Below, in pieces: positions 1-49,718 of a DNA stretch of 64,000 bases. The notes under the pieces are model-generated. The model had not been told where the DNA came from. It searched no databases and saw only the letters and a program-made list of their open reading frames with translations. Positions within the stretch are counted from its first letter, which is position 1; the number at the start of each line of letters is the position of its first letter. This stretch comes from Chitinophagaceae bacterium (lineage in GTDB: Bacteria > Bacteroidota > Bacteroidia > Chitinophagales > Chitinophagaceae), in the NCBI GenBank assembly GCA_947476485.1, contig CANJQU010000005.1, forward strand, positions 1 to 64,000. The letters run 5' to 3'. The translations under genes were made by a program, and so were the position numbers.

Positions 1-299
1 ATGGTGAATAAGAATATCATGTAGCCAAGGTGAAAAAAACCATAGTGCACGAGGAAGAAAAGGGCCGTAGGCACGCGCCGGCCAAAGGTTTCCGTAGTGC
101 CCTCTGTAACTGGCTGTACTTTTCTGACCGTGATAATATCGAGAAATGTAAAAAAACCAAGCGTAACACTCTGCACCCAATACAACCAGATGAGTGTTGT
201 GAACACTTCAGGATGATGGTAGTAATAGTAGATCAGGTAGCCATTTACGGCTATCAATACCCACAACGATGGGTCGGTCATCATTTTCCTGGTATTCAT
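1..299 (-). CDS. DUF6498-like membrane protein, N-terminal part (cut by left edge)
   Basis: An open minus-strand frame starts at an ATG at 299 and runs off the left edge with no stop. The visible 99 residues begin MNTRKMMTDPSLWVLIAVNG and have two hydrophobic stretches (about residues 10-27 and 38-57), then a polar loop and the motif FLVHYGFFHLGYM near the edge. This hydrophobic layout with the F-x-x-HYG-x-F-H motif resembles DUF6498 integral membrane proteins, whose function is unknown. An upstream in-frame TGA fixes the start. No Shine-Dalgarno sequence is seen, which is usual in Bacteroidota. The family call is from memory of the motif and is moderate; that it is a membrane protein is firmer. 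Confidence 0.6.
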   Translation of the reverse strand, partial: MNTRKMMTDPSLWVLIAVNGYLIYYYYHHPEVFTTLIWLYWVQSVTLGFFTFLDIITVRKVQPVTEGTTETFGRRVPTALFFLVHYGFFHLGYMIFLFT

Positions 300-353
300 T
301 CGGACACTAATTTCATACTTTATTTTGGTATTTAATATTTTGGGTACTAAATA

Positions 354-1646
354 TTATAAATGCATACCAATACCACCACGTAGGATAAAGCCCCGGTCAA
401 GAGCTTCACCCATAAGGTAGCCCCTGGTCTTGTATCCGGCCTGGATAAAGAGGCCTGCTTTGTTTGGGAGGCTTACCGGCCGCACCAAAAGATCTGCCTT
501 CAACGCACCTCCAATTGCGTGAGTAGTGGGTTTCAAAGAATTTTCGAGATGCAGCTCTGGCTGCTCCCAAAGATCCAGATGTAGATTAAGTGTCATCGCT
601 TTGACATCAATAACATTGAACCCCTTGGCTGAAAAACCATAGAAACTATGCACAGGGGTTTTCCCGGCCATGAGGTCTCCGCTGAAGAGCATATGGCGGT
701 AGCGCACATAATTCATAAAATGGTACTGACTGCCAAAAGGAGTGAATGAATAGTTGACAGCCGGCAGATAACGCACCTTGCCGATCCTTATCATCGGTAT
801 TTTGTTCAGTTGCTTTTGCCCCTTAATGCCATAGGTATATAGTATTGAATAGGCCGCATAAAGCTGGAACGGATTGATAAATGAAACGAGATCGGCAGTC
901 AGTTGCTTCCTGATCGTGTATTGCTGATCGCCTTGCAGGCCGTAAAGAAAATTGATGCCATTTACATACGCCGTCATATCATTACCCGAATTCTTTTTAC
1001 CGATCCTTTCATAGGTCCTGGCCAGGTAGGCAAACTGGTTATTCTGAGAGAGCAGATAGAGCAGGCCCTGCCGGTAGTGCAGGGTGTCATCCAGTAACGC
1101 CTGCGAAACAACGGTATTGGCGAGCAGTATCTGCGCATCAACCCCGCCAATGCTAATGACAATATTGTCCAGTTGGGTTGGAAAGTGATACCCCGGCAGT
1201 TGCGTACCGGAATGGGCAAATCCGCTACCATTACCAAAGGGAAAAAAAAGATTGAGATTGAATGAGTTTTTGATGTAGCCATATTCCCGGAATCGTGCAC
1301 CATGGCCAAATGCCTCGTGCTGCACCAGCGCTATCAGTTCGTCTGCCTGTGCATCCAGCAGCCACAGCCTCACAGCACGATACCCAAAACCTACCGATTT
1401 TCTTAAAAACGTGTTCTCTCTTTTCAGCGTATCCGGAATATATCGGTCCTGGAAAGAATACAGCGCATGATGCAGGGTAATAAGGTCATTTGCACCTGCA
1501 TATTGTGACTGGTGCTTGTCAAAAACTAGCGTCGAATAAGATTGTGCAGAAGATGTAATCGAAACAAAACCCAACGAAATAACAAGCAAACCCTTCAATA
1601 GACAGGGATGAACACATTTGTTCCAAAGCTCGCTTTTAAATTTCAT
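354..1646 (-). CDS. Secreted or outer-membrane protein with an HExxGH motif, function unknown
   Basis: 430 residues. The N-terminus has a basic stretch and a hydrophobic core ending near SSAQ (residue 35), a signal peptide for export. The most telling motif is HEAFGHGAR at residues 110-118, an HExxGH pattern like the zinc site of M49 peptidases; I find no convincing third ligand, so activity is uncertain. The rest is rich in Gly, Tyr and Phe with alternating hydrophobic residues, as in an outer-membrane beta-barrel. An AGGAG sequence (1649-1653 on the plus strand as CTCCT) lies about 3-5 bases before the ATG, unusual in this genome, and supports the start. I do not recognise the family. Confidence 0.6.
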   Translation of the reverse strand: MKFKSELWNKCVHPCLLKGLLVISLGFVSITSSAQSYSTLVFDKHQSQYAGANDLITLHHALYSFQDRYIPDTLKRENTFLRKSVGFGYRAVRLWLLDAQADELIALVQHEAFGHGARFREYGYIKNSFNLNLFFPFGNGSGFAHSGTQLPGYHFPTQLDNIVISIGGVDAQILLANTVVSQALLDDTLHYRQGLLYLLSQNNQFAYLARTYERIGKKNSGNDMTAYVNGINFLYGLQGDQQYTIRKQLTADLVSFINPFQLYAAYSILYTYGIKGQKQLNKIPMIRIGKVRYLPAVNYSFTPFGSQYHFMNYVRYRHMLFSGDLMAGKTPVHSFYGFSAKGFNVIDVKAMTLNLHLDLWEQPELHLENSLKPTTHAIGGALKADLLVRPVSLPNKAGLFIQAGYKTRGYLMGEALDRGFILRGGIGMHL

Positions 1647-1707
1647 GGCTCCTAAAATAGTAAAAATAACGGTTGCCGAAATTCTGGCAGGAGATAATCA
1701 CATTTTA

Positions 1708-2721
1708 CTACAAGGCCACGCCCATGTTATTGAATACCATCTCAGATATCCTGGAAATGGCCTTTTCTTGCCTGCGCACATCGGCTCCTCTAGTCATTAT
1801 GGTTATCAGGTACGGGTTCCCTTCAAGAAATACAATCGCAGACTCATGCAGTTCGTGCACGTTTCCAAAACCTGCCTCTCCGAACTTATGGGCCACTTTT
1901 ATCGATGCGGGCAGCCCTTCCAAAATTCCATCCTTGAAATCACATTGGGTGAGCAATGTGATAGCTTCCTCAGAAGAGGGTATAGAGAGATAACCCGCAT
2001 CGTACAATACTCTCAAAAACATAGAAAAATCCCTCGGCGAGATAGTATAACCAATATCCTGTAGATTAGGTCTTGAAATACCCATATCCGAAAAAGCATT
2101 CAAAAATATGGTCGTATCCATATGGTTAGTTAGCAGGGTCGTAGCATAATTATCCGAATTGGCGATCATTGAGTGCAGCAGTTCTCTCACTGTGTAAGAT
2201 CGGCCGGGCACTATTGTTTTTGAATTAAAAGTTTGTGACATCGCAAATACTTCTCCCTTCTTATATTCAATTTTTCTTTGCAAAATGCCATGATCTGTTT
2301 CTGCCATCTTCAGATATGTAATCAAATTTACTATTTTCAATAAAGAGCCGGGATGATATGTCGCATTGGCGTTGATAGACATCCAACTGTCATCAGACAA
2401 ACTCATGAAATAAACGGATGCAGTCGACAAATTGCCGGCCTGTTTCTCATTTTCTATTGCAGAACTTATACTTGATTTCAGTGATTTATAATTAGATGAC
2501 TCACATTCCGGGGCAGCAGAAAATATAGGGTGCACATACTTGTAGCCTTTCAATCTATTAAGATTGTATTTGCACTCTGGCTTGTCCGAAGCGACAATTG
2601 AAGAAACGCCTGGTTCCGGATTCGTTTGCTTTTGCTGTATGGGTAAAGCAAAAAAGGTGATTGCACCGCCAAAAATCGCAGACAGCATAACAAGACCTGC
2701 CTGTTTTGGTTTTATTTGCAT
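1708..2721 (-). CDS. Class-A beta-lactamase-like serine hydrolase
   Basis: 337 residues with an N-terminal membrane anchor or signal (residues 8-26), so it probably acts in the periplasm. The three active-site boxes of penicillin-recognising serine hydrolases are present: S126-x-x-K129 (in HPGSLLK), S189-D190-N191, and H278-K279-F280-G281 in place of KTG. Such HKxG boxes occur in the Beta-lactamase2 family (PF13354), whose members include beta-lactamases and carboxypeptidase- or transpeptidase-like proteins. An acylating serine enzyme is well supported; whether it hydrolyses beta-lactams or acts on peptidoglycan cannot be told from sequence. A TAAATATA sequence on the plus strand (2754-2761) may be a weak -7 element for it. 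Confidence 0.8.
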   Translation of the reverse strand: MQIKPKQAGLVMLSAIFGGAITFFALPIQQKQTNPEPGVSSIVASDKPECKYNLNRLKGYKYVHPIFSAAPECESSNYKSLKSSISSAIENEKQAGNLSTASVYFMSLSDDSWMSINANATYHPGSLLKIVNLITYLKMAETDHGILQRKIEYKKGEVFAMSQTFNSKTIVPGRSYTVRELLHSMIANSDNYATTLLTNHMDTTIFLNAFSDMGISRPNLQDIGYTISPRDFSMFLRVLYDAGYLSIPSSEEAITLLTQCDFKDGILEGLPASIKVAHKFGEAGFGNVHELHESAIVFLEGNPYLITIMTRGADVRRQEKAISRISEMVFNNMGVAL

Positions 2722-2867
2722 ATATAGTACGTTTATTATTAGGGTTTAAGACGTAAATATAGTGTCGTTCCAAGACAAGCATCTGTCAAACGGGGTAAAA
2801 ATGCATTTTTTAGGGGCGTGTAGAATTGAATACTATGAAGCTGTTCTAAATGGAATAATAAGGCGAA

Positions 2868-3272
2868 TTACCTTTGATAGCTTTTATCGTACCGGACAAA
2901 GAAAGCGATCCATATTGATCTTGCCAGTCTTTGTATGGGTGGTTGCAGCACAATAAGCAATGCAGCATTTACACCCAACCACCAAAATACCCGATTGTCC
3001 TTGACGGACATACCAATCGTGAACCACCACATGATGAAGGTTAATCCGCTGAAAAATACGGTCAGGCCATAACTCACAAAACCAGTACCAAAATAAAAGC
3101 CTGTCTGCAATTCAAACTTTTGCCCGCAGACCGGGCAAACCTCCGGCATCCGCATTGTACTTCTGAGATCATAAGGATTGGCAGTAACGAACAGGTTGCC
3201 CCTCCTGCAATGCGGGCACTTGTTAGTTATCACACTGCTTAAAAGTCCGGGACTTGAATGTGCTTCGCTCAT
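2868..3272 (-). CDS. DUF983 family zinc-ribbon membrane protein
   Basis: 134 residues. Two CxxC knuckles, CPHC near residue 19 and CPVC near residue 46, form a zinc ribbon, followed by two hydrophobic helices (about residues 63-83 and 90-110). This arrangement and length are typical of DUF983, a bacterial family of unknown function. Its ATG overlaps the TGA of the AraC regulator just upstream (ATGA, 3269-3272), so the two genes are translationally coupled and probably co-transcribed. The coupling suggests the regulator and this membrane protein belong to one response, but the sequence does not say which. Confidence 0.85.
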   Translation of the reverse strand: MSEAHSSPGLLSSVITNKCPHCRRGNLFVTANPYDLRSTMRMPEVCPVCGQKFELQTGFYFGTGFVSYGLTVFFSGLTFIMWWFTIGMSVKDNRVFWWLGVNAALLIVLQPPIQRLARSIWIAFFVRYDKSYQR

Positions 3273-4174
3273 ATAGATTCACTTTTGGTACCACCTGAAG
3301 CCTTTCTGAATTCTTCAGGTGTAATATGTAAACACTTTTTAAAAAACTTTGTGAAATGAGAATTATCAGAAAAATTCAACTGGTTGGATATCTCCGATAT
3401 TGCCATATCCGCGTTGATCAACAGTCTCTTTGCTTCAAGCAGTATCCTATCCCTGATCACCTCACCGGCAGGCTTACCCAGCAGGTCTTTGCAGAGCGCA
3501 TTAAGGTGATTTGGCGTTATGTAAAGCATAGCGGCATATTCACGCGGCAGCCTCTTTTCAGCATAGTATTTGTCCACCAACTTTCTGAAATTGAACAAAA
3601 CTGTCTGGCTTTGCAGTGGCGCTTGCGTTGCAGTGTGCGCTGGGCTGTTGCGAAAGACGAGGATAAATAATTCAATGAGGCAGGCACGAACAAGGTCAAG
3701 AGATGTTGCATCACTATTCCTAACTTCATCGACTATGTTTCTAAAGACGGTTTTAATACCAGACTGGGCGTTAGGAATTAGTTCACGGACGCTATCCCGG
3801 GCTATTCCTCTGAAGAAAGTAAATTTCTCAAGGTAGGCTGCATCAGAAAGAAATGAGCGAAACAGGCCTTCCGAAAAGTTGATAACGAATCCATCCACAT
3901 GTCCATCAAAATTCCAGCTATGTACCTGGCCGGGGATCATAAAGTAAATCTGTCCCGACCTCACGTCAAACCGTTCAAAATCGATAGTGTGGTATCCGCT
4001 TCCTTCAGTAAAAAGTACAATGTGATAAAATGAATGACGATGCGGCAAATGCAGGTTCGGATGAACCTCCAGGTAAGCCGCAAACGGTTCGGCTATCAGA
4101 TCCTGATGAATATGATCGTGCCCGCTTAGCGAGCATATATCATAAACCGGTATCGTCGTTTTTACCTTTCGCAT
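3269..4174 (-). CDS. AraC family transcriptional regulator
   Basis: 301 residues from the ATG at 4174. A cupin-like sensor domain occupies about residues 20-150 (HPNLHLPHRHSFYHIVLFTEG and IPGQVHSW are typical of AraC_binding). The C-terminal 100 residues carry the paired helix-turn-helix DNA-binding domain, with AISEISNQLNFSDNSHFTKF as the second helix-turn-helix and HITPEEFRK at the end. I chose 4174 over the upstream TTG at 4201 because a perfect -7 element lies at 4182-4189, inside the longer frame. It overlaps the downstream DUF983 gene by four bases. The effector is not predictable. Confidence 0.9.
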   Translation of the reverse strand: MRKVKTTIPVYDICSLSGHDHIHQDLIAEPFAAYLEVHPNLHLPHRHSFYHIVLFTEGSGYHTIDFERFDVRSGQIYFMIPGQVHSWNFDGHVDGFVINFSEGLFRSFLSDAAYLEKFTFFRGIARDSVRELIPNAQSGIKTVFRNIVDEVRNSDATSLDLVRACLIELFILVFRNSPAHTATQAPLQSQTVLFNFRKLVDKYYAEKRLPREYAAMLYITPNHLNALCKDLLGKPAGEVIRDRILLEAKRLLINADMAISEISNQLNFSDNSHFTKFFKKCLHITPEEFRKASGGTKSESI

Positions 4175-4181
4175 CAGATCA

Positions 4182-4189
4182 CAAAGATA
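4182..4189 (-). promoter_or_regulatory. Candidate -7 promoter element for the AraC gene
   Basis: On the minus strand the bases read TATCTTTG, a full match to the Bacteroidota -7 consensus TAnnTTTG, eight bases before the ATG at 4174. A leader of only a few bases is implied. No clear TTTG -33 element is found at the expected distance, so this is a moderate call. Confidence 0.4.
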
Positions 4190-4576
4190 CCATTGATACA
4201 AATGGGTCTATTGTAAAAACTATACAATTAGTTGTATTTTTTACTGATTTCTCTTCTAGTTGAAAAATTACACTCACTCCCGGGACTATCTAACCTGGTG
4301 CTTCACGATGGGTAATTACTTGCCTGAATCACTCGCTTTTTTGAGTATATAAAACCGCTCTTATTTGCTATCTACAAGTTACTAACACTAACTAACACGT
4401 TATCAACATTCCATTTGCCCATTTCGTTAGCAAATTCAGCTCAAAACCAATACAGTAAAGGGTTTCACTTCATATATCAGGATGTGGATAAATATGTAAA
4501 GTTATTTCTGTGGAAATAAGTGGGAAAAAGTGTTATTTTGTGGAGATAATTGATTTTATCGCCTCTAAACACACAC
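4190..4576. other. Divergent intergenic region between the AraC gene and the dcw cluster
   Basis: About 390 bases without a gene. It holds the upstream region of the AraC gene on one side and the dcw control region on the other. Its only clear structure is the GTG-repeat MraZ box near 4510-4544, with one further isolated GTGGA at 4484. I see no convincing -33/-7 promoter pair for mraZ and no terminator. Confidence 0.5.
4510..4544 (+). promoter_or_regulatory. MraZ box: four GTG repeats at 10-base spacing
   Basis: GTGGA at 4510, GTGGG at 4520, GTGTT at 4530 and GTGGA at 4540 are spaced exactly one helical turn apart, 33 bases before the mraZ ATG. MraZ is known to bind direct GTG-containing repeats with 10-base phasing upstream of its own operon in E. 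coli and Mollicutes. The match in phase and position supports autoregulation of the whole cluster by MraZ. The third repeat is the most degenerate. Confidence 0.8.
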
Positions 4577-5044
4577 ATGACCAGTTTTCTCGGTGAATAT
4601 GAAATAGCAATAGACGCTAAAGGGCGTTTCTTATTGCCATCGGGATTCCGGAAGCAGCTAGCTGAAGGAATGGGGGAAAAGTTTGTCATAAACCGTGGTT
4701 TTGAGAACTGTCTTTCGATATACACCATGGACACATGGAGTGCAATAAGCGAAAAGATAAACCGCCTCAATGATTTCAAACCCGCAGTCAGAGAATTCAA
4801 AAGATTATTCCTGAACGGAGCAACAATAGTAGAGGTAGATAGCGCCGACCGCATACTGCTGCCTAAGCCATTGCAGGAGCATGCCGGTATAAAGAAAGAT
4901 GCTGTGTTGAGTGCGCAGGGCAATAAAGTGGAATTGTGGGATAAAGATACTTATTATAATTATCTCCGTGAGCGTGTTGGCGGTTTCAGCAAGCTGGCGG
5001 AAGAAGTGGCAAATGATTTCGGGAACCCATTTGAAAATCTATAA
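4577..5044 (+). CDS. mraZ: Transcriptional regulator MraZ
   Basis: 155 residues from the ATG at 4577; the frame is open further upstream, but the MTSFLGEYEIAIDAKGR start fits the family. Two SpoVT/AbrB-like halves are visible: the first with DAKGRFLLPSGFR, the second with VDSADRILLPKPL. MraZ forms ring-shaped oligomers and represses the dcw operon by binding GTG repeats, which occur just upstream. It is the first gene of the operon and its TAA is one base before the rsmH ATG, so translation is tightly linked. Confidence 0.95.
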   Translation: MTSFLGEYEIAIDAKGRFLLPSGFRKQLAEGMGEKFVINRGFENCLSIYTMDTWSAISEKINRLNDFKPAVREFKRLFLNGATIVEVDSADRILLPKPLQEHAGIKKDAVLSAQGNKVELWDKDTYYNYLRERVGGFSKLAEEVANDFGNPFENL

Positions 5045-5045
5045 A

Positions 5046-5957
5046 ATGGGCACACCCGGTTTTTACCACACAACAGTTCTTTTACATGAGGCAGTAGATG
5101 GTTTGGCGATAAAGGAAAACGGTGTTTATGTAGATGCCACTTTCGGTGGCGGCGGGCATAGCAGGCTGATCCTGGAAAAGCTGGGGCCGCAAGGAAAGCT
5201 GATCGCATTTGACCAGGACGCAGATGCGTGGAAGAACAAACCCGATGACCCACGGCTAATTCCCGTGACGGAGAACTTTAAATACCTGAGGCGGTTTTTA
5301 CGGTTACACGGGCAGAATGAAGTAGATGGGATACTTGCAGACCTGGGCGTCAGTTCTTTTCAGTTTGACACCGCAGAACGGGGATTTTCGATCCGCTTCG
5401 ATGGGCCGCTGGACATGAGAATGGACAAACGCTCGGAGTTAACCGCAGCAGAGATACTGCGGACCTACAACGAACAACAAATGCATACGCTCTTTGAACA
5501 ATACGGTGAGGTGCGCAATTCGAAAGAGTTGGCAAAGCACATAGCAGGACAGCGAAAAGGAAAGACGGTGCAGACCATCGAAGGGCTTAAAGCAATGCTG
5601 GGTCCTGTGATACGGGGCAATCCCAACAAGTACCTGGCGCAGGTGTTCCAGGCGCTGAGAATTGAGGTGAATGACGAGCTGGGCGCGCTGAAAGAGTTTT
5701 TGCAGCAGGCAGCAATAAGTCTGAAACCGGGCGGCAGGTTAAGCGTGATATCGTTTCACTCCCTGGAAGACAGGATAGTGAAGCACTATATAAAAAGAGG
5801 ACGGTGGGATGAGGCAGGTGAGTATGAGGAGGCGATAGTGCCATTGCTGAGGCCGGTGAATGCGAAGCCCATAGAACCGACAGATGAAGAGATAAAAAAC
5901 AATCCCCGGTCGCGTAGCGCACGATTGAGAGTAGCGGAAAAAAAAACCAACCCCTAA
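5046..5957 (+). CDS. rsmH: 16S rRNA (cytosine-1402-N4)-methyltransferase
   Basis: 303 residues from the ATG at 5046. The SAM-binding motif DATFGGGGHS, the helical insert domain and the motifs DLGVSSFQFD, FQALRIEVNDEL and SFHSLEDRIVK mark RsmH (MraW), which methylates C1402 of 16S rRNA in the cytoplasm. A longer frame upstream overlaps mraZ, but homology begins at MGTPGFYHTT. The stop codon lies inside a small palindrome (CCCC-TAAA-GGGG, 5951-5962), so the last residues (TNP) seem to come from a dispersed repeat. Confidence 0.95.
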   Translation: MGTPGFYHTTVLLHEAVDGLAIKENGVYVDATFGGGGHSRLILEKLGPQGKLIAFDQDADAWKNKPDDPRLIPVTENFKYLRRFLRLHGQNEVDGILADLGVSSFQFDTAERGFSIRFDGPLDMRMDKRSELTAAEILRTYNEQQMHTLFEQYGEVRNSKELAKHIAGQRKGKTVQTIEGLKAMLGPVIRGNPNKYLAQVFQALRIEVNDELGALKEFLQQAAISLKPGGRLSVISFHSLEDRIVKHYIKRGRWDEAGEYEEAIVPLLRPVNAKPIEPTDEEIKNNPRSRSARLRVAEKKTNP

Positions 5958-8608: not shown

Positions 8609-10074
8609 TGCAGCAGTTGAACAACATATTGATAAATGTGACCCCGGTGCAAACCCGCGGAGATATGACTACACAGGTAAGCGGTGTATGCATAGACTCA
8701 CGCAAGGTAGTAGCAGGCAGCGCATTCGTAGCTGTTCGCGGCACTCTATCAGATGGGCATGCGTTTATTGAAAAATCTATCGCGCAGGGAGCAGCAGTGA
8801 TCGTATGTGAACGTATGCCGGAAATATACAAAGACGGGGTAGCCTATGTACAGGTGAAAGACACCGCGGAAACGGCAGGTCTTATGGCCGATGCATTTTA
8901 TGATTTCCCATCACAAAAGATAAAGGTTGTCGGTATTACCGGAACAAACGGTAAAACAACTACCGCTACACTGCTATACAAACTGTTCGAAGGGTTGGGC
9001 TACAAATGCGGCTTGCTTTCCACAGTACAGAATCACATACATAATAAAATAGTTGAGGCAACACACACTACCCCTGATTCGGTATCAGTACATAGCCTGC
9101 TGAGGGATATGGTGAACGCCGGTTGCACGCACGCATTCATGGAGGTAAGCTCACATGCCGTACATCAGCGCCGTATTGCCGGTATCAGGTTTGCGGGCGG
9201 TGTGTTTACCAACATTACCCACGATCATCTCGACTATCACAAAACGTTCGATGAGTATATCCGGGTGAAGAAGGCCTTTTTCGATGAGCTGCCTGCGGGC
9301 GCTTTCGCACTTACCAATGCAGATGATAAACGGGGTATGGTGATGCTGCAGAATACCAGGGCAGACAAACACACCTACAGCTTGCGCATGCCGGCAAGTG
9401 TGAAAGGCAAGGTGCTGGAAAACAATCTCTCCGGGCTGTTTATGAATATAGATGGCCAGGATGTGCATTTCAGGCTCATAGGCACATTCAATGCCTACAA
9501 CCTGCTCGCCGTATATGGCGCTGCCAAATTCCTGGGCGAGGATAAAATGGAAGTGCTGGCGGTGCTAAGCGGATTACAGGGCGCCGCAGGACGTTTTGAG
9601 ACCTATCTGTCGCCTAACGATAAAATACTGGGCATCGTTGATTACGCTCACAGCCCCGATGCGTTGATAAATGTACTGGCTACTATTAACCAGTTGCGAA
9701 CCGATGGCCAGCAATTGATAACCGTGGCCGGCTGCGGTGGCGACCGTGACAAGACCAAACGGCCGGTAATGGCGCAGGTAGTATGCGAGCACAGCGACAA
9801 AGCCATACTGACTTCAGACAACCCCAGGAGCGAAGACCCGGAGCAGATACTGAACGATATGGAAGCTGGTCTCACCGGGCCACAGAAAAGAAAAAGCCTG
9901 CGCATTACAGACAGGAAGGAAGCGATAAAAGTGGCTTGCTCACTGGCACAGGCAGGAGATATAATACTGGTGGCAGGCAAGGGACATGAGAACTACCAGG
10001 AGGTAAAAGGAGTAAAGCATCATTTTGATGATAGGGAAGTATTAACAGAAGCTTTTGAAACATTAAATAAATAA
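8608..10074 (+). CDS. murE: UDP-MurNAc-L-Ala-D-Glu:meso-diaminopimelate ligase
   Basis: 488 residues with the three Mur ligase domains. The ATP loop is GTNGKTTT at residues 112-119. The signature DNPR at residues 404-407 is the motif that selects meso-diaminopimelate over lysine, so the peptidoglycan is predicted to be meso-DAP type. It adds the third residue to the UDP-MurNAc peptide in the cytoplasm. The ATG overlaps the ftsI stop by one base, and mraY follows after six bases, so it sits within a tight operon. Confidence 0.96.
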   Translation: MQQLNNILINVTPVQTRGDMTTQVSGVCIDSRKVVAGSAFVAVRGTLSDGHAFIEKSIAQGAAVIVCERMPEIYKDGVAYVQVKDTAETAGLMADAFYDFPSQKIKVVGITGTNGKTTTATLLYKLFEGLGYKCGLLSTVQNHIHNKIVEATHTTPDSVSVHSLLRDMVNAGCTHAFMEVSSHAVHQRRIAGIRFAGGVFTNITHDHLDYHKTFDEYIRVKKAFFDELPAGAFALTNADDKRGMVMLQNTRADKHTYSLRMPASVKGKVLENNLSGLFMNIDGQDVHFRLIGTFNAYNLLAVYGAAKFLGEDKMEVLAVLSGLQGAAGRFETYLSPNDKILGIVDYAHSPDALINVLATINQLRTDGQQLITVAGCGGDRDKTKRPVMAQVVCEHSDKAILTSDNPRSEDPEQILNDMEAGLTGPQKRKSLRITDRKEAIKVACSLAQAGDIILVAGKGHENYQEVKGVKHHFDDREVLTEAFETLNK

Positions 10075-32196: not shown

Positions 32197-32228
32197 CCCC
32201 CTCTCCTTCGGAGAGGGCCGGGGAGAGG
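32197..32228. repeat. Dispersed palindrome of the GGAGAGGG family
   Basis: CCCTCTCC and GGAGAGGG face each other around TTC, followed by CCGGGGAGAGG. It is the same element type as those found inside hsdR (46871, 46928, 47349). It lies about 34 bases beyond the 3' end of the small lipoprotein gene on the minus strand. Confidence 0.7.
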
Positions 32229-41568: not shown

Positions 41569-43152
41569 ATGGCAAAGGCAACTAAACAGGAAGCAGAAGA
41601 GACCCTCGAGAAAAAACTTTGGAAAGCCGCCGACAAGCTCCGCAAAAACATGGACGCCGCCGAGTACAAGCACGTAGCCCTCGGCCTCATCTTTCTTAAA
41701 TACATTTCCGACGCATTCGAAGAACTGTACGACAAGCTCGTAGCCCAGAAAGACGAAGGCGCCAACCCCGAAGACAAGAACGAATATATCGCCGAAAAGG
41801 TGTTCTACGTGCCACCCTCCGCCCGCTGGCGCTGGATACAGGGCCGCGCCACCCTCCCCACCATCGGTAAGGACATAGACGACGCCATGGAAGCAATCGA
41901 GAAAGATAATATCTCCCTCCGCGGTGTCCTCCCCAAGGTCTACGCTCAGGAAAAGCTAGATAAGCAAAGCCTCGGCGGACTCATAAACCTCATTGGCACA
42001 GCCACCATAGGCACCAAAGAAGCGCAGAGCAAAGACATCCTCGGCCAGGTCTACGAATACTTCCTCGGCGAGTTCGCCCTTGCCGAGGGCAAGCAGGGCG
42101 GCCAATTCTACACCCCCGCCAGCATTGTGCGGCTGCTGGTACAGATGTTGGAGCCCTACGAGGGCCGCGTATTCGACCCCTGCTGCGGCAGCGGCGGCAT
42201 GTTTGTACAATCCGAGAAATTCATAAAGTCCCACCAGGACCATTACAAACCCAAAGGGAAAACCGCTCTCCGCTCTATCGCACTATCGCCCTCGGATAGA
42301 ATATCCATCTACGGCCAGGAAAGCAACCAGACCACATGGCGCCTTGCCCGCATGAACCTTGCCATCCGTGGCATAGACAGCAGCAATGTAAAGTGGAACA
42401 ACGAGGGCAGCTTTCTCAACGATGCCCACAAAGACCTCAAGGCCGACTACATCATCGCGAACCCGCCCTTCAACGATAGCGACTGGAGCGGCGAGCTACT
42501 GCGCGAAGATGCCCGATGGGAAGTCCTCGGCCAGAAACTGCCACCATCACTCGGCAATGCCAACTACGCCTGGATACAGCACTTCATCTACCACCTCGCC
42601 CCCGCCGGCCAGGCAGGCTTTGTGCTCTCCAAGGGCTCCCTTACCAGCAACTCGAACAACGAAGGGGAGATAAGAAAGGCGTTAATAGAAAAAGACCTGA
42701 TCGACTGCATTGTAAATCTCCCGCCAAAACTCTTCCTTAATACCCAGATCCCCGCCTGCCTCTGGTTCCTGCGTAGGCAGAAATTACACCGCAAGCGCCA
42801 GATGCTTTTCATAGACGCCCGCAATCTGGGTTACCTGGTAAACAGGAAAAATAAGTCCTTAACTGATGAGGACATTAATCTCATTGCCACCACCTATCAT
42901 AATTGGCGTACAGGAGAAGGAGAATACAATGATGTACAAGGATTCTGTAAGTCTGTAACAATAGATGAAGTAAATGACCTGAATTACACACTCACACCGG
43001 GCCGCTATGTGGGTCTTGCCGATGAAGAAGATGATTTCAATTTTGCAGAAAAATTTGCCAGTTTGAAAACTGAATTGGAAGCACAAATTGCCGAAGAAGA
43101 AGAACTGAACAACAAGATTAAATCCAATCTCTCAAAAATCAATACTCTTTAG
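41569..43152 (+). CDS. hsdM: Type I restriction-modification methyltransferase subunit
   Basis: 527 residues. The N-terminal helical HsdM_N domain is followed by the N6-adenine methyltransferase domain: [18 protein letters not shown]-binding [12 protein letters not shown], and the catalytic NPPF at residues 298-301. It methylates host DNA in a complex with HsdS, and restricts with HsdR. It heads the locus hsdM-hsdS-two genes-hsdR, with hsdS starting five bases after its stop. Most of the gene is GC-rich, but the last 300 bases are clearly AT-richer, like hsdS. Confidence 0.95.
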
Positions 43153-43157
43153 TCAAA

Positions 43158-44405
43158 ATGAATCAAAGAAAAGAGACCGCATTAGGAGAGATTCCAAGCG
43201 ACTGGAATGTATTGACAGTTGATGAGATAAAAGCATCCCCGAAAAAAGCAATTATTTCTGGGCCTTTTGGATCGAACATAAGTAGCAAGTACTTTGTTGC
43301 ATCGGGAATACCGGTTATTCGGGGGAATAACTTAAGTCTACAGATTGGGAAAAAATTTATAGACGATGGTTTTGTTTATTTAACCGACGACAAGGCAAAT
43401 GAATTAGGAACCTGGGCTGAAAGGGATGATTTAATATTCACTGCAGCAGGAACCATTGGACAGGTTGGAATTTTACTAGGCAATGAGAAGTACTCAAAGT
43501 ATATTATTTCCAATAAGCAACTAAGAGTAAGGCTAAACAAGAATATTGTATTACCAACTTTTGCCTACTATTGGTTCAATACTCCTTTCATGAGAGATAC
43601 TATTATGCAAAGGGATACTGGTTCAACTATTCCATTAATAAACTTATCGGTATTAAAAGGATTGCCAATTCCGGTACCTGAACTACCAGAACAAACCGCC
43701 ATCGCCACTATCCTTTCCAGCCTTGATGATAAAATAGATCTCCTCTACCGCCAAAACCAGACCCTAGAAGCCCTAGCAGAAACGCTTTTCAGGCAGTGGT
43801 TTGTGGAGGACACTGATGATTGGCCTATCAAAAAAGTGTCAGAAATTATTGAAGTCAGAGACGGCACTCATGACTCACCCAAACAAAAAGAAGAGGGCAA
43901 ATTTCTAATAACGTCTAAACACCTAAAACCAACCGGTATTGATTTTTACAGTGCATATAAGATTTCGGACGAAGACTTTGAAGCAATTAATAAAAGAAGT
44001 AAAGTAGATAAAGGGGATATCCTCTTTTCGATGATTGGCACGCTCGGTTTAATATTTTTTGTTTCGGAACCTCCCGTTTATGCAGTAAAAAATATTGGCT
44101 TGTTTAAGTCATCTCAAAAACCGTGGTTTGGAAGATTTCTGTTTATGTTACTAAAAAGCCCGTTGGGGAAAAATTTCATTTACGAAAATGCAAGTGGTTC
44201 CACGCAAGAATACATTACGCTTGGTAGTTTAAGAAATTTTGAATTTCCGTTTCACGGAGAAGATAAAATAAAAGAATTTGACGAGACTGTTGGGCCGCTA
44301 TTTTTGAAAGTCGAATCTAATAACAATCAAATCCGCACCCTCACCCAACTCCGCGATAACTTATTGCCAAAGCTGATGAGTGGCGAGGTGAGGGTAAAAA
44401 TGTAA
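43158..44405 (+). CDS. hsdS: Type I restriction-modification specificity subunit
   Basis: 415 residues with the usual two-fold plan: target recognition domain 1 (about residues 1-175), a central conserved helical region (LPEQTAIATILSSLDDKIDLL), target recognition domain 2 (about 220-375) and the C-terminal conserved region (TLTQLRDNLLPKLMSGEV). It determines the bipartite DNA site bound by HsdM and HsdR. Both recognition domains are AT-rich while the central conserved part is GC-rich like hsdM, a sign of domain exchange. The target sequence cannot be read from the protein by eye. Confidence 0.95.
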   Translation: MNQRKETALGEIPSDWNVLTVDEIKASPKKAIISGPFGSNISSKYFVASGIPVIRGNNLSLQIGKKFIDDGFVYLTDDKANELGTWAERDDLIFTAAGTIGQVGILLGNEKYSKYIISNKQLRVRLNKNIVLPTFAYYWFNTPFMRDTIMQRDTGSTIPLINLSVLKGLPIPVPELPEQTAIATILSSLDDKIDLLYRQNQTLEALAETLFRQWFVEDTDDWPIKKVSEIIEVRDGTHDSPKQKEEGKFLITSKHLKPTGIDFYSAYKISDEDFEAINKRSKVDKGDILFSMIGTLGLIFFVSEPPVYAVKNIGLFKSSQKPWFGRFLFMLLKSPLGKNFIYENASGSTQEYITLGSLRNFEFPFHGEDKIKEFDETVGPLFLKVESNNNQIRTLTQLRDNLLPKLMSGEVRVKM

Positions 44406-44492: not shown

Positions 44493-45050
44493 ATGCCGAT
44501 TCCCAATTTCGATCACAACTTGGTTCTGCCGCCTCACTTAGGCGACCCTACGGACATTAGTCAGTTATCTCCGTACTCTTGTACTACAATAGATTTGTGC
44601 AGCAAGTTTGCGACTTCACCCGAACGCATTGCAATTTTGACTGGCTTTCTACGGTTTCGTGATCGCCTCAATAATTTAGGACTAGTTGATGGTTATCAAT
44701 GGCTAGACGGGAGTTTCTTAGAAGACATTGAGAACCAGGAAGGCCGAGCACCAAGAGACTTGGATGTTGTTACAATATACTATGGATACGATTTACCATT
44801 TCAAGATGCCCTGTTAGTTGGTCTACCTGAGTTCGGCGATCCCATTTTGGCAAAACAGACTTATTCATTGGATCATTATCCATTTGACGCAGGCTATGCG
44901 CCCATTAACACTGTTGAAATGTCTCGATATTGGATTCAATTATTTTCGCATAATAGAAATGCCATTTGGAAGGGAATGTTGAGAATTGAATTAAACACTC
45001 CAGCGGATGACGCAACTGCATTACATAATCTTCAAAATCCCGCGCCATGA
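44493..45050 (+). CDS. DUF6932-like predicted nucleotidyltransferase inside the hsd locus
   Basis: 185 residues. It begins MPIPNFDHNLVLPPHLGDPT, the start typical of DUF6932 proteins. The motif G73-S74 followed by D89-L90-D91 (in DGSFLED and PRDLDVV) fits the nucleotidyltransferase pattern hG[GS]x(9-14)DhD, with both metal-binding aspartates intact. The rest is compact and cytoplasmic. Its TGA overlaps the next ATG by four bases (45047-45050), so the two proteins are made together. Position between hsdS and hsdR suggests a defence-related accessory function. Substrate (nucleotide, tRNA or protein) is unknown, and the family call is from memory. Confidence 0.6.
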   Translation: MPIPNFDHNLVLPPHLGDPTDISQLSPYSCTTIDLCSKFATSPERIAILTGFLRFRDRLNNLGLVDGYQWLDGSFLEDIENQEGRAPRDLDVVTIYYGYDLPFQDALLVGLPEFGDPILAKQTYSLDHYPFDAGYAPINTVEMSRYWIQLFSHNRNAIWKGMLRIELNTPADDATALHNLQNPAP

Positions 45051-45961
45051 ATCTAAGAAGACAACGAGAGCTAATAAAAGTGCAGATATTAGAAACGGAG
45101 AAAATAATCGCACAAATTGGCGGACACCCGATTATGACACACGCTTTCAGCCAAAAGATAAACGACTTAAAGGAAAAACTTAAGGCATTACCAGTCGATG
45201 GAAAAGAACCAAAAGTTGCGTTGTTTTTCTCCGGCGGGCCAGTATCAGGTTCATTAGGCATCGATGCCAGCTTCATTGGCAAGGTAATATTACCCTTTCA
45301 GAAAATGGTTAGCGCTGACCTCGCTCAGCGAGGTTATGGCAAAGTCGGAGCAAGGGGAAAAGTAAAAAATGCAGGTGATGCTAGACTTTTTTTGACCGCA
45401 TTACCTCGAGGTTCTTTTGGTATCGAATTATCAAAGCTGGAAAATGACAATCTGTTTGACGAGGCGCAGGTTTCAGATTCGCTTACGCATGTTGTCAGAC
45501 TGATAGAGTCAGCGGCGAAAAGCGATGAAGATTTTGCCGCTTCATTTAATGATATCTCACAAAGAACGATTAGTGGGCTTAGACAATTTTTGCAAATAGT
45601 ATCTGCTGATAAGGCCGGAGTTACAATTGAATCGGGCGCATTGAAGTCTTCACTGAACATAAACGAAGTATCTGTTGCGTACACGCGCGTTGCAAATACA
45701 ATAACTAAGCAAGCTAATGTTGAAATTTCGGGAATATTAAAAGGCATATTATTGGAGTCATGGCGTTTTGATTTCGTAGATGAGGTGGGCAACGCATTAA
45801 CTGGCGCTATTAGTGACGCACTAACAGAGGAAGAAGTTAGCGGAATGGCTGTTGCTTTTTTCAATCAGAGGTGCATTGCAAGCTTTCGCAAAACGGATGT
45901 TTACCTGCAAAATGGAAGAATAAAAGAAAGTTATTTACTGAAGAATATTCGCGCCATATAG
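45047..45961 (+). CDS. Uncharacterised partner of the DUF6932-like protein
   Basis: 304 residues, no signal peptide or membrane segment. The N-terminal 50 residues are helical and charged (QRELIKVQILETEKIIAQIG, INDLKEKLKAL), likely a coiled coil. A middle part has a recognisable pattern VALFFSGGPVSGSLGIDASF then GDARLFLTALPRGSFGIEL, and the C-terminal half is mixed alpha/beta. I recall similar proteins as hypothetical genes, some beside nucleotidyltransferase-like genes, but I know of no function. It is coupled to the upstream gene by an ATGA overlap, and hsdR starts seven bases after its stop. Confidence 0.65.
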   Translation: MNLRRQRELIKVQILETEKIIAQIGGHPIMTHAFSQKINDLKEKLKALPVDGKEPKVALFFSGGPVSGSLGIDASFIGKVILPFQKMVSADLAQRGYGKVGARGKVKNAGDARLFLTALPRGSFGIELSKLENDNLFDEAQVSDSLTHVVRLIESAAKSDEDFAASFNDISQRTISGLRQFLQIVSADKAGVTIESGALKSSLNINEVSVAYTRVANTITKQANVEISGILKGILLESWRFDFVDEVGNALTGAISDALTEEEVSGMAVAFFNQRCIASFRKTDVYLQNGRIKESYLLKNIRAI

Positions 45962-45968
45962 AGGGTTC

Positions 45969-48900
45969 ATGTCCAGGATAAATGAGAATCACATCGAAAC
46001 ACTCGCAATCGAAACCTTGCAGCAGCTTGGCTGGTCATACCTGCATGGGCTGTCTATAGCTCCGGGCGCAGAGTTTTCACAGCGGGAGTCTTTTGAGCAG
46101 GTTATCTTAAAAGGCCGCCTGCAGGCGGCCATAGCAAAGATTAATCCGCATATCCCGGCTCATGTTCAGGACCAGGCCGCTCAAAAAGTCATCAATATTT
46201 ATTCGCCGGTTCTGCTGTTCAACAACGAAACCTTTCACAACTACCTCGTAGAAACCGTCAAGATCCCTTACCAGTTAGATGGCTACGAGCGCAGCCACGA
46301 GGTCGCCCTCTTCGATTTCGAGAACCCGCAGAACAATGAGTTCCTCGTCGTCAATCAATATACCATCCACGAGAATAACAACAACAAACGCCCCGATGTA
46401 CTGCTGTTTGTCAACGGCATACCATTAGTGGTTATAGAGCTAAAGAATGCAGCCAGTGAAAATGCAACACTAAGCAAGGCCTACGAGCAGCTGCAAACCT
46501 ACAAGCAGGCCATACCATCACTCTTCACCTACAATGCCGTCTGCATCATTTCAGATGGCCACGAGTGCAAGGCCGGCAGCGTCTCCGCCGGCCTCACCCG
46601 CTACATGGCCTGGAAGACCGCTGATGGCAAAAAAGAAGCCTCCCGCTTCGCCCCCCAGATCGAGACCATGATCCGCGGCATGCTCAACCCCGCCACCCTC
46701 CTCGATCTCGTGCGCAACTTCATAGTCTTCGAAGAAACAAAAAAGACCGACCCCAAAACCGGCCTGATACAAATAGAAAAAGAAAAAAAACTCGCCGCCT
46801 ACCACCAATACTACGCCGTCAACAAAGCCGTTCAATCAACAATACGCGCTACCGGCTACACCTCACACAGCACCTCCCTCTCCCCCTTGGGAGAGGGCTG
46901 GGGTGAGGGAAAATACAACACCGGCAACACCTCCCTCTCCCCCTTGGGAGAGGGCCGGGGTGAGGGCCCTCACTATCGCGGCGGGTTCCAATACTCCGGC
47001 TTAGTAACCCAGGCCCGGGAACTAAGAAAAGATCAAACTAAAGCAGAAGAAATATTCTGGCAATTGGTCCGCAACCGGCAATATGATGGTCTCAAATTCA
47101 GAAGGCAACATCAGATTGGTTTATACATAACTGACTTCTACTGCGACGACATAAAATTAGTTATAGAGTTCGACGGAGGAGTCCATTCCGATCCCGAACA
47201 AGCGAAAATTGACAAAGTTCGCGATGAAAATCTTCGATCACTTGGTTTTCATATCGCCCGGTTCCAAAACGAAGAACTCCTCAACACCCCCGACCAGTTC
47301 TTCGAAAAACTTACAAAGAAAATCGGGGAGTGCGCAGCACTCCCAAAGCCCTCTCCCTTTGGGAGAGGGTTGGGTGAGGGTCTTTCTGGCGACCGCCGCG
47401 GTGGCGTAGTATGGCACACACAAGGCAGTGGCAAAAGCCTGAGCATGGTATTCTATGCAGGTAAGCTCATTACTTCGCCGCAGATGCAAAACCCTACCAT
47501 CCTCGTCATCACCGACCGCAACGACCTCGACGATCAGCTATTCGATACCTTCGCCGCATCCCGCCAGTTGCTGCGCCAGGAGCCCGTACAGGCGCGCGAT
47601 CGGTTGCACCTCAAAGAATTGCTCAGGGTAGCCAGCGGCGGCATCGTCTTCACCACCATTCAAAAATTCTCACCCGATGGCGCCCTCGCAGTCTACGATA
47701 TGCTGTCCGATCGCAGCAACATAGTAGTAATCGCAGATGAGGCCCACCGTACCCAGTATGGCTTTGAAGCCGTAACACGAAGCATTAAAGACAAAGACAC
47801 CAAAGAGGTCATAGGCGCGCGCATTGCCTACGGCTTTGCAAAATACCTCCGCGATGCCCTGCCTGCAGCCACTTACATCGGCTTCACTGGCACACCCATC
47901 GAAGGCACCGACGTAAATACTCCGCAGGTCTTCGGCAACTACGTAGACATCTACGACATATCGCAGGCCGTTGCAGATGGTGCCACCGTTAAGATATACT
48001 ATGAGAGCCGCCTCGCCAAAGTGAAAATAACAGAAGAAGGCAGGCGGTTGCTGGAAGAGCATGATGCCGAACTGGAAGCAGATGAAGAAGTAACTGATCG
48101 GCAACGCGCAAAAGCAAAATGGACAAAACTCGAGGCCATAATCGGCCTTCCGCAGCGGGTACAAAATCTTGCTGCCGATATAGTCGATCACTTCGAGCAG
48201 CGGCAAAAAGTGTTCGACGGCAAGGCAATGATCGTAGCCATCAGCCGCAGGGTTGCTGTCGATTTATACAATGCCATCATCGCTCTCCGCCCTGGCTGGC
48301 ATGATGATGACCTCGCTAAGGGCATGATCAAAGTAGTGATGACCGCCACCAGCGATGATGGTCCCGTTATTGCAAAGCACCACACCACCAAAACACAACG
48401 AAAGAATCTCGCATTGCGAATGAAAGACCAGTCCGATCCTCTGCGGTTGGTCATTGTTCGCGATATGTGGCTTACCGGCTTCGATGCCCCTTGTCTTAAT
48501 ACGCTGTACATCGATAAGCCCATGCGCGGCCACAACCTAATGCAGGCCATCGCTCGGGTCAACCGCGTTTTTGGAGACAAGCCCGGCGGCAACGTAGTCG
48601 ATTACCTCGGCATAGCGTCCGATCTTAAAGAGGCCCTGTCTTTTTATTCCGATGCAGGCGGCAAAGGCACGCCCACCGAAACACAGGCGCAGGCGGTCGC
48701 CCTCATGCTCGAAAAGTTTGAAGTAGTGCGGCAAATGTTCAACGAACAAAGCCGCACACAAGAAGACATATTGGTTGAGGAGCCGGAAGCCTACTACGAA
48801 GGCAGCCTTAAATTCAACTACCGCCGCTTCTTCCACGTAGAGCCGCGCGAAAAACTATCCATCATACTACAGGCCGAAGAACACATCCTCGGCTTGCAGG

Positions 48901-49718
48901 ATGGCAAGGAGCGCTTCATTCGCGAGGTCACACTACTTAGCCAGTCATTCGCACTCAGCGTCCCGCATGAGGACGCAATAAAAATACAGGATGATATCGC
49001 CTTCTTTCAGGCAGTGAAAGCACGGCTGGTAAAGTTTGAAGGCACAGGTGGCGGCCGTTCCGATGCCCAGATCGAATCCACCATAAAGCAGATAATCGAT
49101 AGTGCCGTTACCAGCGACGGCATAATAGATATTTTCGATGCCGCAGGTATCCAGAAGCCGGAACTATCCATATTGTCAGAAGAGTTTTTGATGGAAGTCA
49201 AAGACATGAAGCACAAAAACCTTGCTTTTGAGCTCCTCAAAAAAATACTCAATGACGAAATAAAGAACCGTGCAAGAACCAATATTGTACAAAGCCGCGC
49301 CCTGCTCGAAATGCTCGAAGCAGCGATCAAAAAATATCAGAACAACCTCATCACAACCGCCGAAGTCATCCAGCATCTGCTCGATCTCGCTAAAGCGGTA
49401 AAAGACGCTGACAAGCGCGGTATTGATCTAAACCTTACCATTGATGAGCTCGCATTTTATGATGCCCTCGAAGTAAACGACAGTGCAGTAAAAGTGCTGG
49501 GTGACGAACAGTTAAGATTTATAGCAAGAGAGATTGCAGAAAAAATAAGAAGCAACGCCACCATCGATTGGACCATCCGCGAAAGTGCCCGTGCCAAACT
49601 CATGGTCCTCGTCCGCCGCACCCTCACCAGGTACGGCTACCCACCCGACATGCAGCAAAAAGCCATCGATACCGTCCTCAAACAAGCCGAACTCCTCGCC
49701 GACTACTGGACAGAATAG
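45969..49718 (+). CDS. hsdR: Type I restriction endonuclease subunit with an in-frame DUF559 nuclease insert
   Basis: 1249 residues. The N-terminal HsdR nuclease has P142-D143 and E157-L-K159. The helicase motor has Walker A (HTQGSGKS, residues 483-490), DEAH at 590-593, FTGTPIEGTD and further SF2 motifs (RDMWLTGFDAP, QAIARVNRVF). Between them, about residues 300-471, lies an extra segment: two SLSPLGEG-type peptides, a complete DUF559 domain (about 345-450, with D389, E400, D402, H406) and a SPFGRGLGEG peptide. Without it the protein would be about 1,078 residues, normal for the family, and AVQSTIRATG would join GDRRGGVVWHTQGSGK. No frameshift is seen; whether the enzyme still works is open. 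Confidence 0.93.
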   Translation: MSRINENHIETLAIETLQQLGWSYLHGLSIAPGAEFSQRESFEQVILKGRLQAAIAKINPHIPAHVQDQAAQKVINIYSPVLLFNNETFHNYLVETVKIPYQLDGYERSHEVALFDFENPQNNEFLVVNQYTIHENNNNKRPDVLLFVNGIPLVVIELKNAASENATLSKAYEQLQTYKQAIPSLFTYNAVCIISDGHECKAGSVSAGLTRYMAWKTADGKKEASRFAPQIETMIRGMLNPATLLDLVRNFIVFEETKKTDPKTGLIQIEKEKKLAAYHQYYAVNKAVQSTIRATGYTSHSTSLSPLGEGWGEGKYNTGNTSLSPLGEGRGEGPHYRGGFQYSGLVTQARELRKDQTKAEEIFWQLVRNRQYDGLKFRRQHQIGLYITDFYCDDIKLVIEFDGGVHSDPEQAKIDKVRDENLRSLGFHIARFQNEELLNTPDQFFEKLTKKIGECAALPKPSPFGRGLGEGLSGDRRGGVVWHTQGSGKSLSMVFYAGKLITSPQMQNPTILVITDRNDLDDQLFDTFAASRQLLRQEPVQARDRLHLKELLRVASGGIVFTTIQKFSPDGALAVYDMLSDRSNIVVIADEAHRTQYGFEAVTRSIKDKDTKEVIGARIAYGFAKYLRDALPAATYIGFTGTPIEGTDVNTPQVFGNYVDIYDISQAVADGATVKIYYESRLAKVKITEEGRRLLEEHDAELEADEEVTDRQRAKAKWTKLEAIIGLPQRVQNLAADIVDHFEQRQKVFDGKAMIVAISRRVAVDLYNAIIALRPGWHDDDLAKGMIKVVMTATSDDGPVIAKHHTTKTQRKNLALRMKDQSDPLRLVIVRDMWLTGFDAPCLNTLYIDKPMRGHNLMQAIARVNRVFGDKPGGNVVDYLGIASDLKEALSFYSDAGGKGTPTETQAQAVALMLEKFEVVRQMFNEQSRTQEDILVEEPEAYYEGSLKFNYRRFFHVEPREKLSIILQAEEHILGLQDGKERFIREVTLLSQSFALSVPHEDAIKIQDDIAFFQAVKARLVKFEGTGGGRSDAQIESTIKQIIDSAVTSDGIIDIFDAAGIQKPELSILSEEFLMEVKDMKHKNLAFELLKKILNDEIKNRARTNIVQSRALLEMLEAAIKKYQNNLITTAEVIQHLLDLAKAVKDADKRGIDLNLTIDELAFYDALEVNDSAVKVLGDEQLRFIAREIAEKIRSNATIDWTIRESARAKLMVLVRRTLTRYGYPPDMQQKAIDTVLKQAELLADYWTE
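46871..46909 (+). repeat. GGAGAGGG-family palindrome, first copy inside hsdR
   Basis: CACCTCCCTCTCC then CCCTTGGGAGAGGG and CTGGGGTGAGGG. Translated in the hsdR frame as SLSPLGEGWGEG. It differs from the second copy, 57 bases on, by one base. Confidence 0.9.
46928..46966 (+). repeat. GGAGAGGG-family palindrome, second copy inside hsdR
   Basis: CACCTCCCTCTCC then CCCTTGGGAGAGGG and CCGGGGTGAGGG, encoding SLSPLGEGRGEG. Same frame as the first copy (offset 57 bases, 19 codons). Confidence 0.9.
47349..47380 (+). repeat. GGAGAGGG-family palindrome, third copy inside hsdR
   Basis: CCCTCTCCC-TTT-GGGAGAGGG followed by TTGGGTGAGGG, encoding PSPFGRGLGEG. It lies downstream of the DUF559 domain in the same orientation as the two upstream copies, but is two bases shorter and read in another frame relative to the repeat. 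Confidence 0.88.

Follow-up and report, generated by a model that had tools for sequence, protein, structure and literature searches.

The window, that is, the whole stretch of 64,000 nucleotides that was analysed, contains an hsd locus in which hsdR is interrupted in frame by a nuclease domain set among hairpin palindromes. The features are as follows (here and below, G-numbers denote genomes and L-numbers loci of the comparison set):

41569–43152, + strand: hsdM (N6_Mtase, HsdM_N; Pfam)
43158–44405, + strand: hsdS (Methylase_S; Pfam)
44493–45050, + strand: DUF6932 protein, between hsdS and hsdR (Pfam)
45047–45961, + strand: 304-aa ORF between hsdS and hsdR, no Pfam match at E 0.001 (ORF list, Pfam)
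45969–49718, + strand: hsdR, type I restriction subunit R, host of the insert, 1249 codons (Pfam; NCBIfam TIGR00348 hsdR, E 7.5e-179)
46857–47387, + strand: in-frame insert, codons 297–473, between RATG and GDRRGG of HsdR; boundaries approximate, against the DUF559-free HsdR of G047
46871–46909, no strand: hairpin palindrome 1 with GGGGTGAGGG tail, peptide reading TSLSPLGEGWGEG (repeat search, DNA folding)
46928–46966, no strand: hairpin palindrome 2, a direct copy of palindrome 1, peptide reading TSLSPLGEGRGEG (repeat search, DNA folding)
47007–47321, + strand: DUF559 / Vsr-like nuclease domain, HsdR aa 347–451, catalytic residues intact (Pfam PF04480; model of pLDDT 84 matching 3hrl and the homing endonuclease 3r3p)
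47348–47380, no strand: hairpin palindrome 3, direct orientation, peptide reading PSPFGRGLGEG (repeat search, DNA folding)

A single open frame was found from 45969 to 49718, so that hsdR is continuous over its 1249 codons, as the preliminary description had it. The Pfam domains of HsdR were HSDR_N (aa 4–208), DUF559 (aa 347–451; E 8.7e-32, 109.7 bits versus a curated cut-off of 20.6 for PF04480), SWI2_SNF2 (474–705) and T1RH-like_C (897–1245); the insert lies in the loop ahead of Walker A, after the HSDR_N nuclease domain and before the helicase motor. It had been given as 170 codons with no start of its own; it is present and in frame, its length being about 177 codons (297–473) and not exactly 170, and its 45 codons before the first catalytic Glu contained no in-frame ATG or GTG and one TTG, inside a hairpin. 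GC content was 43.7% in the nuclease core (47000–47340) versus 51.6% in the remainder of hsdR. The DUF559 domain is complete, and the residues named as catalytic (D389, E400, D402 and H406) were conserved at 90% or more across 10 aligned HsdR rows, one of these being the DUF559-free protein of G047 and two the same G026 gene. All three palindromes said to flank the nuclease were present; they proved to be direct copies with no inverted pair.

The preliminary description would have failed had every HsdR homologue carried the segment; this is not so, as HsdR of G047 was found without the domain and the HsdR match of G009 skips it. An assembly error is unlikely, since this HsdR loop in G026 holds a nuclease of 74% identity, accompanied by different hairpins. 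An empty allele fusing ATG to GDRRGG exactly, as had been envisaged, was not found in the comparison set; in the nearest empty HsdR (G047, L011) a native loop takes this place.

The isolated domain was modelled with pLDDT 84; Foldseek with this model gave 3hrl (a DUF559 protein, E 1.1e-8), 3r3p (E 2.2e-4) and 1vsr (E 0.027), and a sequence profile match to 3r3p, the catalytic domain of the homing endonuclease I-Bth0305I, was obtained with E 1.5e-5. By profile and by predicted fold, the embedded domain is related to a proven homing enzyme. DUF559 is placed in the EDxHD family (PMC9403480). The part of HsdR modelled with the insert was built from only 7 sequences (mean pLDDT 54; repeat linkers of low confidence). 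The catalytic E, D, E, D, H and D were kept in 64–65 of 65 embedded rows and were near-invariant among these and 59 stand-alone ones, the pattern used in the genome scan itself having required RQH and none of the other catalytic residues. For the hsdR nuclease, window versus G026, dN was 0.20 and dS 2.2; dN was well below dS where dS was estimable, dS being saturated for most pairs.

The motif GGAGAGGG occurred 11 times on both strands of the window versus 1.00 expected, a number reached in 0 of 100 shuffles, and six of the 11 occurrences were arms of the three hairpins in the hsdR insert. Folded as DNA, these three gave −10.1 to −13.2 kcal/mol (z −1.9 to −3.3). Throughout this genome the exact-core hairpin was found at 38 sites, those of hsdR and leuS included, when the wider pattern was used (3 sites with a 4-base loop only); 35 of the 38 have loops of 3–4 bases, and the only others are the three of hsdR, with longer loops. 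It was present in 30 of 35 genomes of the genus (own genome included) and in 4 of 25 others; a reversed-pattern control for this census matched once in 4 genomes. Hairpin and nuclease are not tightly coupled, since the 38 exact-core hairpins stand against 5 DUF559 domains in this genome, and G007 has DUF559 and no such hairpin.

The best inverted match between two 410-base flanks was determined for 68 of the 80 loci of the genome scan described below, 12 near contig ends being left out for want of flank, with positions in the same loci as controls. A score of at least 14 was reached in 34 of 68 DUF559 loci versus 1 of 408 control positions, and a score of at least 16 in 31 of 68 versus 0 of 408; the other 34 loci had no inverted repeat at a score of at least 14. 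By count from the listing, 14 of the 34 loci with inverted flanks are stand-alone DUF559 genes, and the link to repeats is thus not confined to embedded copies. Inverted terminal repeats were in this way seen in half of the testable relatives and also in leuS of this genome, the three hsdR hairpins being direct. Five repeats (from hsdR, leuS and miaB) had 5 or 6 of 6 frames open; all six were open in 22–52% of shuffles of equal composition, so that openness of frame is mostly a matter of composition.

Hairpins were also met apart from embedded nucleases. At 32199–32217 of the window a hairpin of the resident type, followed by GGGGAGAGG, lies between listed ORFs and is likely a solo copy. Another hairpin family, CCCCTCCTGTTTTTAGGAGGGG, was present in several copies around stand-alone DUF559 genes of the genus (L061, L075, L082, L086). 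In L047 (G000:C11, near 8742–8758) a solo hairpin was found in frame within a 918-aa frame, the downstream peptide of which resembles one of the G047 locus L054 (part of L054 was masked). In L054, DUF559 lies in or beside a presumably mutase-like gene.

Insertion is not specific to HsdR. Besides the hsdR copy, this genome holds four further DUF559 copies, one of them in frame inside leuS between two inverted hairpins; a second hairpin pair in the same leuS has no nuclease. When 59 relatives were searched together with this genome, in-frame DUF559 was found in leuS (two sites), miaB (two genomes) and hemE (end fusion). A scan of named genomes was evaluated on the best 80 DUF559 loci of at least 587 matching stretches, a sample biased towards the query; 44 of these 80 had DUF559 inside an open frame of at least 230 aa, and the host family was named by HMM in 42 of the 44, several matches being under the curated cut-off (e.g., HsdM, PglX, xylosidase) and several host frames being cut by contig ends. 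Among these best 80 loci, the hosts were restriction-modification proteins (HsdR, HsdM, HsdS), methyltransferases (an MmeI-like and two PglX-like ones), synthetases (LeuRS, IleRS, ValRS), other enzymes (MetH, adenine deaminase, riboflavin synthase, chorismate synthase, alpha-xylosidase, AhcY), and a ligase-associated helicase, a PurQ-like end fusion and HisF start fusions. The remaining two of the 44 were a 455-aa ORF of L157, HsdR by motif only, and L176, with no host family. Two of the 44 frames end soon after the domain (L154, hsdR; L174, leuS); in L174 (823–2175; LeuRS with DUF559 at site 1) there is one in-frame stop after the domain, and the remaining LeuRS continues in the same frame. 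The G026 hsdR has a TAA roughly 60 codons ahead of where its match ends. By record titles, embedded copies come from, among others, Planctomycetota, Kiritimatiellae, Elusimicrobia, Nitrospinota, a cyanobacterium and a Methanophagales archaeon.

Of 148 genomes drawn from the phylum of the window, 64 had DUF559. Among the 150 matches listed, of which 5 come from this genome, 121 were in open frames under 300 aa and 29 (two of this genome among them, all judged by frame length alone) in frames of at least 300 aa; most DUF559 matches there are thus outside long host frames. The domain was matched by 2 of 50,697 phage records (under 60% identity) and by 41 of 72,556 plasmid records (all under 60% identity); on these few and distant matches, neither phages nor plasmids look like a usual vehicle.

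LeuRS was parsed at both loops in 36 of 47 loci (own genome included; 11 in which a motif was missing were dropped, and 4 of the 36 are outside the genus), and the allele states were called by peptide pattern, a scarred allele being one in which hairpins alone are left, in frame. Site 1 was filled in 11, scarred in 9 (G010 and G013 on weak peptide resemblance) and empty in 16; site 2 was filled in 1, scarred in 8 and empty in 27. A scar at site 2 of G030 was rejected and the allele counted as empty, its native residues merely reading GEG. On the 33-row LeuRS tree the state of site 1, filled versus not filled, required 9 changes, and the filled label clustered no more than shuffled labels did; the presence of the cassette among the leuS relatives is sporadic. 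Comparison of the sister species G034 and G021 at the DNA level gave an in-frame deletion in leuS between two CCTCTCC copies; that of G003 and G023, also sister species, gave an apparent in-frame deletion with the tail of the right hairpin apparently kept, and site 1 of G003, scored as empty, retains this apparent tail of 7 bases. In leuS of G006 only the outer hairpin feet are left, still in frame. The left hairpins of four filled leuS alleles were stacked to different depth: three (2 alleles), two (1) and single (1). One Sphingobacteriales LeuRS fragment had DUF559 at both sites.

Of 17 miaB loops, 2 were filled (G001, G031), 2 had one hairpin (G006, G009) and 13 had neither; one of these 13 is G004, whose MiaB has 99 and 97% identity with the two G001 flanks. 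Filled and empty leuS and miaB alleles were compared by eye at the DNA level, and no duplication of a target site could be recognised. The general proposal of the preliminary description, that protein genes can take up, in frame, a small nuclease with palindromic ends, is upheld by the many cases, by the empty and scarred alleles in related species and by the flank test. As a separate observation, site 2 of LeuRS in G000 (L094, 3501–3690) holds an inverted hairpin pair around ca. 28 native LeuRS residues and no nuclease.

The nuclease tree had 124 rows (65 embedded and 59 stand-alone; five short fragments were dropped). A branch of 37 of the 124 rows (97, starred) consisted of embedded copies only, in LeuRS, IleRS, MetH, MiaB and others. 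A 14-row branch (SH-aLRT 94, not starred) united 13 copies from hsdR, hsdM and hsdS, that of the window included, with one stand-alone gene, across phyla; its hsdR copies are at two sites. HsdR of G048, cut by a contig end, has different hairpins and a nuclease from a different branch in the loop that is filled in the window, and this loop therefore seems to have been hit at least twice. The DUF559 of the L157 HsdS fell outside the restriction-gene branch. In L157 itself (a Nitrospinota hsd locus; 1–1830 and 3967–5331), DUF559 is in frame both in hsdS, between the halves, and in the following hsdR-like ORF, the two copies belonging to two different branches of the tree.

On 116 columns, with no starred branch in the nuclease tree and with groups chosen after the trees had been seen, the leuS nuclease (11 copies) rejected G000+G005 (p-AU 0.006), a host pair with 100/100 support in LeuRS; LeuRS rejected G000+G033 (p 2e-6), a pair present in the nuclease tree at 92/87, and also G005+G008+G022. 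G022+G024, one of two host pairs tested, was not rejected by the leuS nuclease (p 0.42). From this conflict between trees the leuS cassette seems to move independently of its host gene. The hsdR copy, to judge from its repeats and relatives, probably arrived already filled, with the hsd genes, rather than by insertion in this genome: its hairpins are direct and differ from the other 35 in the genome, and the related HsdR insert of G026, together with a restriction-gene branch that spans phyla, points to hsd genes that already carried the insert when they came.

The reading that we prefer, and hold to be probable, is that the insert is one of a widespread family of selfish nuclease elements, bounded by hairpins, that sit in frame in protein genes, are translated with the host protein and spread in a homing-like manner. 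In the sequences each is a small domain of Vsr/EDxHD type that stands, with its hairpin repeats, among conserved blocks of the host protein. The nuclease would make its cut at an empty allele, or at a hairpin or close to one, and repair would then copy the cassette in, as in homing; the hairpin repeats would act as docks and as linkers, selection would keep only in-frame insertions in tolerant loops, and deletion between repeats would remove the cassette and leave a readable scar. That the nuclease drives the movement is inferred by us. The main rival takes the hairpins, REP- or RPE-like, as the mobile unit, moved by some other enzyme, for instance a tyrosine transposase of the RAYT type, with DUF559 as a passenger caught between two hairpins; hairpins are indeed far commoner than DUF559 in this genome (38 exact-core sites versus 5 domains), five Y1_Tnp matches are present in it, and REPs are thought to be moved by RAYTs (PMC3733652). 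However, the hairpins near three of the five Y1_Tnp matches are of other sequences and there are none at the other two, some stand-alone DUF559 genes are surrounded by other hairpin families, and the active site is kept in nearly all embedded rows, which is unexpected for a pure passenger; on this evidence the rival is judged unlikely, though it deserves weight. A local RAYT as mover of these hairpins was rejected, those near the Y1_Tnp matches being different; action in trans could still be accommodated.

Recruitment of DUF559 by HsdR, HsdM and HsdS as a second nuclease that helps restriction, the hairpins being incidental linkers, would fit the 13 restriction-modification copies gathered across phyla in the 14-row branch (SH-aLRT 94, not starred) and a dN well below dS, but the domain is also found in leuS, metH, miaB and further genes for which no use of a nuclease is known, its presence flips between close species in leuS, and HsdR of G048 and HsdS of L157 carry DUF559 of another branch; we find it distinctly improbable. 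Removal of the segment as an intein or self-splicing intron is brought to mind by in-frame nuclease inserts in conserved genes, which look intein-like, and by a nuclease fold resembling an intron homing enzyme; it is hardly credible, as there was no Hint-type domain among the HsdR Pfam matches at E 0.001 and no Rfam intron in 46500–47700 (two matches were far under gathering scores), and the 177-codon insert is mostly nuclease and repeats.

Selfish DNA entering conserved genes is usually thought to need splicing, by introns or inteins, in order to be tolerated; the small palindromes of Rickettsia are the sole exception known to us, and they are not known to have an enzyme of their own. RPEs are in-frame palindromes of ca. 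150 bp that encode a peptide in unrelated protein genes, and CGTC REPs have no dedicated transposase (PMC10969869, PMC3733652). The present elements resemble the Rickettsia palindromes in being in frame in unrelated protein genes and encoding a peptide, and differ from them in the nuclease domain between the hairpins and in hosts across many phyla. Known homing endonucleases are carried by self-splicing introns, inteins or free genes (PMC3943268). With the EDxHD / Vsr-like ones (I-Bth0305I, PDB 3r3p) the embedded domains share fold and profile, insertion in conserved genes, sporadic presence and the conflict of trees seen in leuS, whereas here the nuclease has hairpin ends and seemingly remains part of the host protein. 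Inteins with a homing endonuclease are likewise in-frame nuclease inserts in conserved proteins, but no splicing domain was found among the HsdR Pfam matches. A REP or REPtron with RAYT is similar in having a small gene of a DNA-processing enzyme, often inverted hairpin flanks, and hairpins also solo over the genome; it is different in that the enzyme between the repeats is here a Vsr-like DUF559 and no HUH tyrosine transposase, in frame in coding sequence. VsrA of Caulobacter, likewise a DUF559 protein, has a functional link to cytosine methylation and a predicted role in mismatch repair (PMC12907096), a role that differs from the mobile-element reading of the embedded domains. The element reads as one between Rickettsia palindromic elements and homing endonucleases: unspliced, in frame and hairpin-bounded.

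In the open-access literature (most subscription papers lie outside this scope), no description was recognised of DUF559 with palindromes or of such in-frame nuclease elements, and the embedded DUF559 family looks like an undescribed kind of selfish DNA. More tentatively, and with slightly more doubt than conviction, it may be put forward as a mobile element of a new class: a homing nuclease, in frame and unspliced, with hairpin ends that would be recombination docks, protein linkers and frame keepers at once. It would invade essential genes without introns or inteins; the 37-row branch, in which the sample holds no stand-alone gene, would live only inside housekeeping proteins; and orphan palindromes in frame, those of Rickettsia for example, could owe their spread to such a driver. 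In leuS, metH, ileS and further genes, across many phyla, the finished protein appears to retain the nuclease. Were it to move by its own nuclease, selfish DNA would have one more way of hiding in essential genes, domain insertions in evolving proteins would have a likely source, and the spread of in-frame palindromes would have an explanation open to test; the SPSPLGEG-type peptides and the additional nuclease domains of such enzymes would, if the proposal is true, also be accounted for.

Two loci of other composition may be added. LeuRS of L131 (G059; 266–3616), of another family, holds at site 1 a different inserted domain, PBECR3 (PF18812, E 3.4e-17), a predicted nuclease, and no SPSPLGEG-type peptide was seen at this insert; from these sequences the same LeuRS loop seems to accept unrelated nuclease domains. 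In L217 (4376–6316) one frame consists of an N-terminal part of no recognised family, DUF559 and AhcY minus the first residues; the element may have joined two genes here, or the assembly may be chimaeric.
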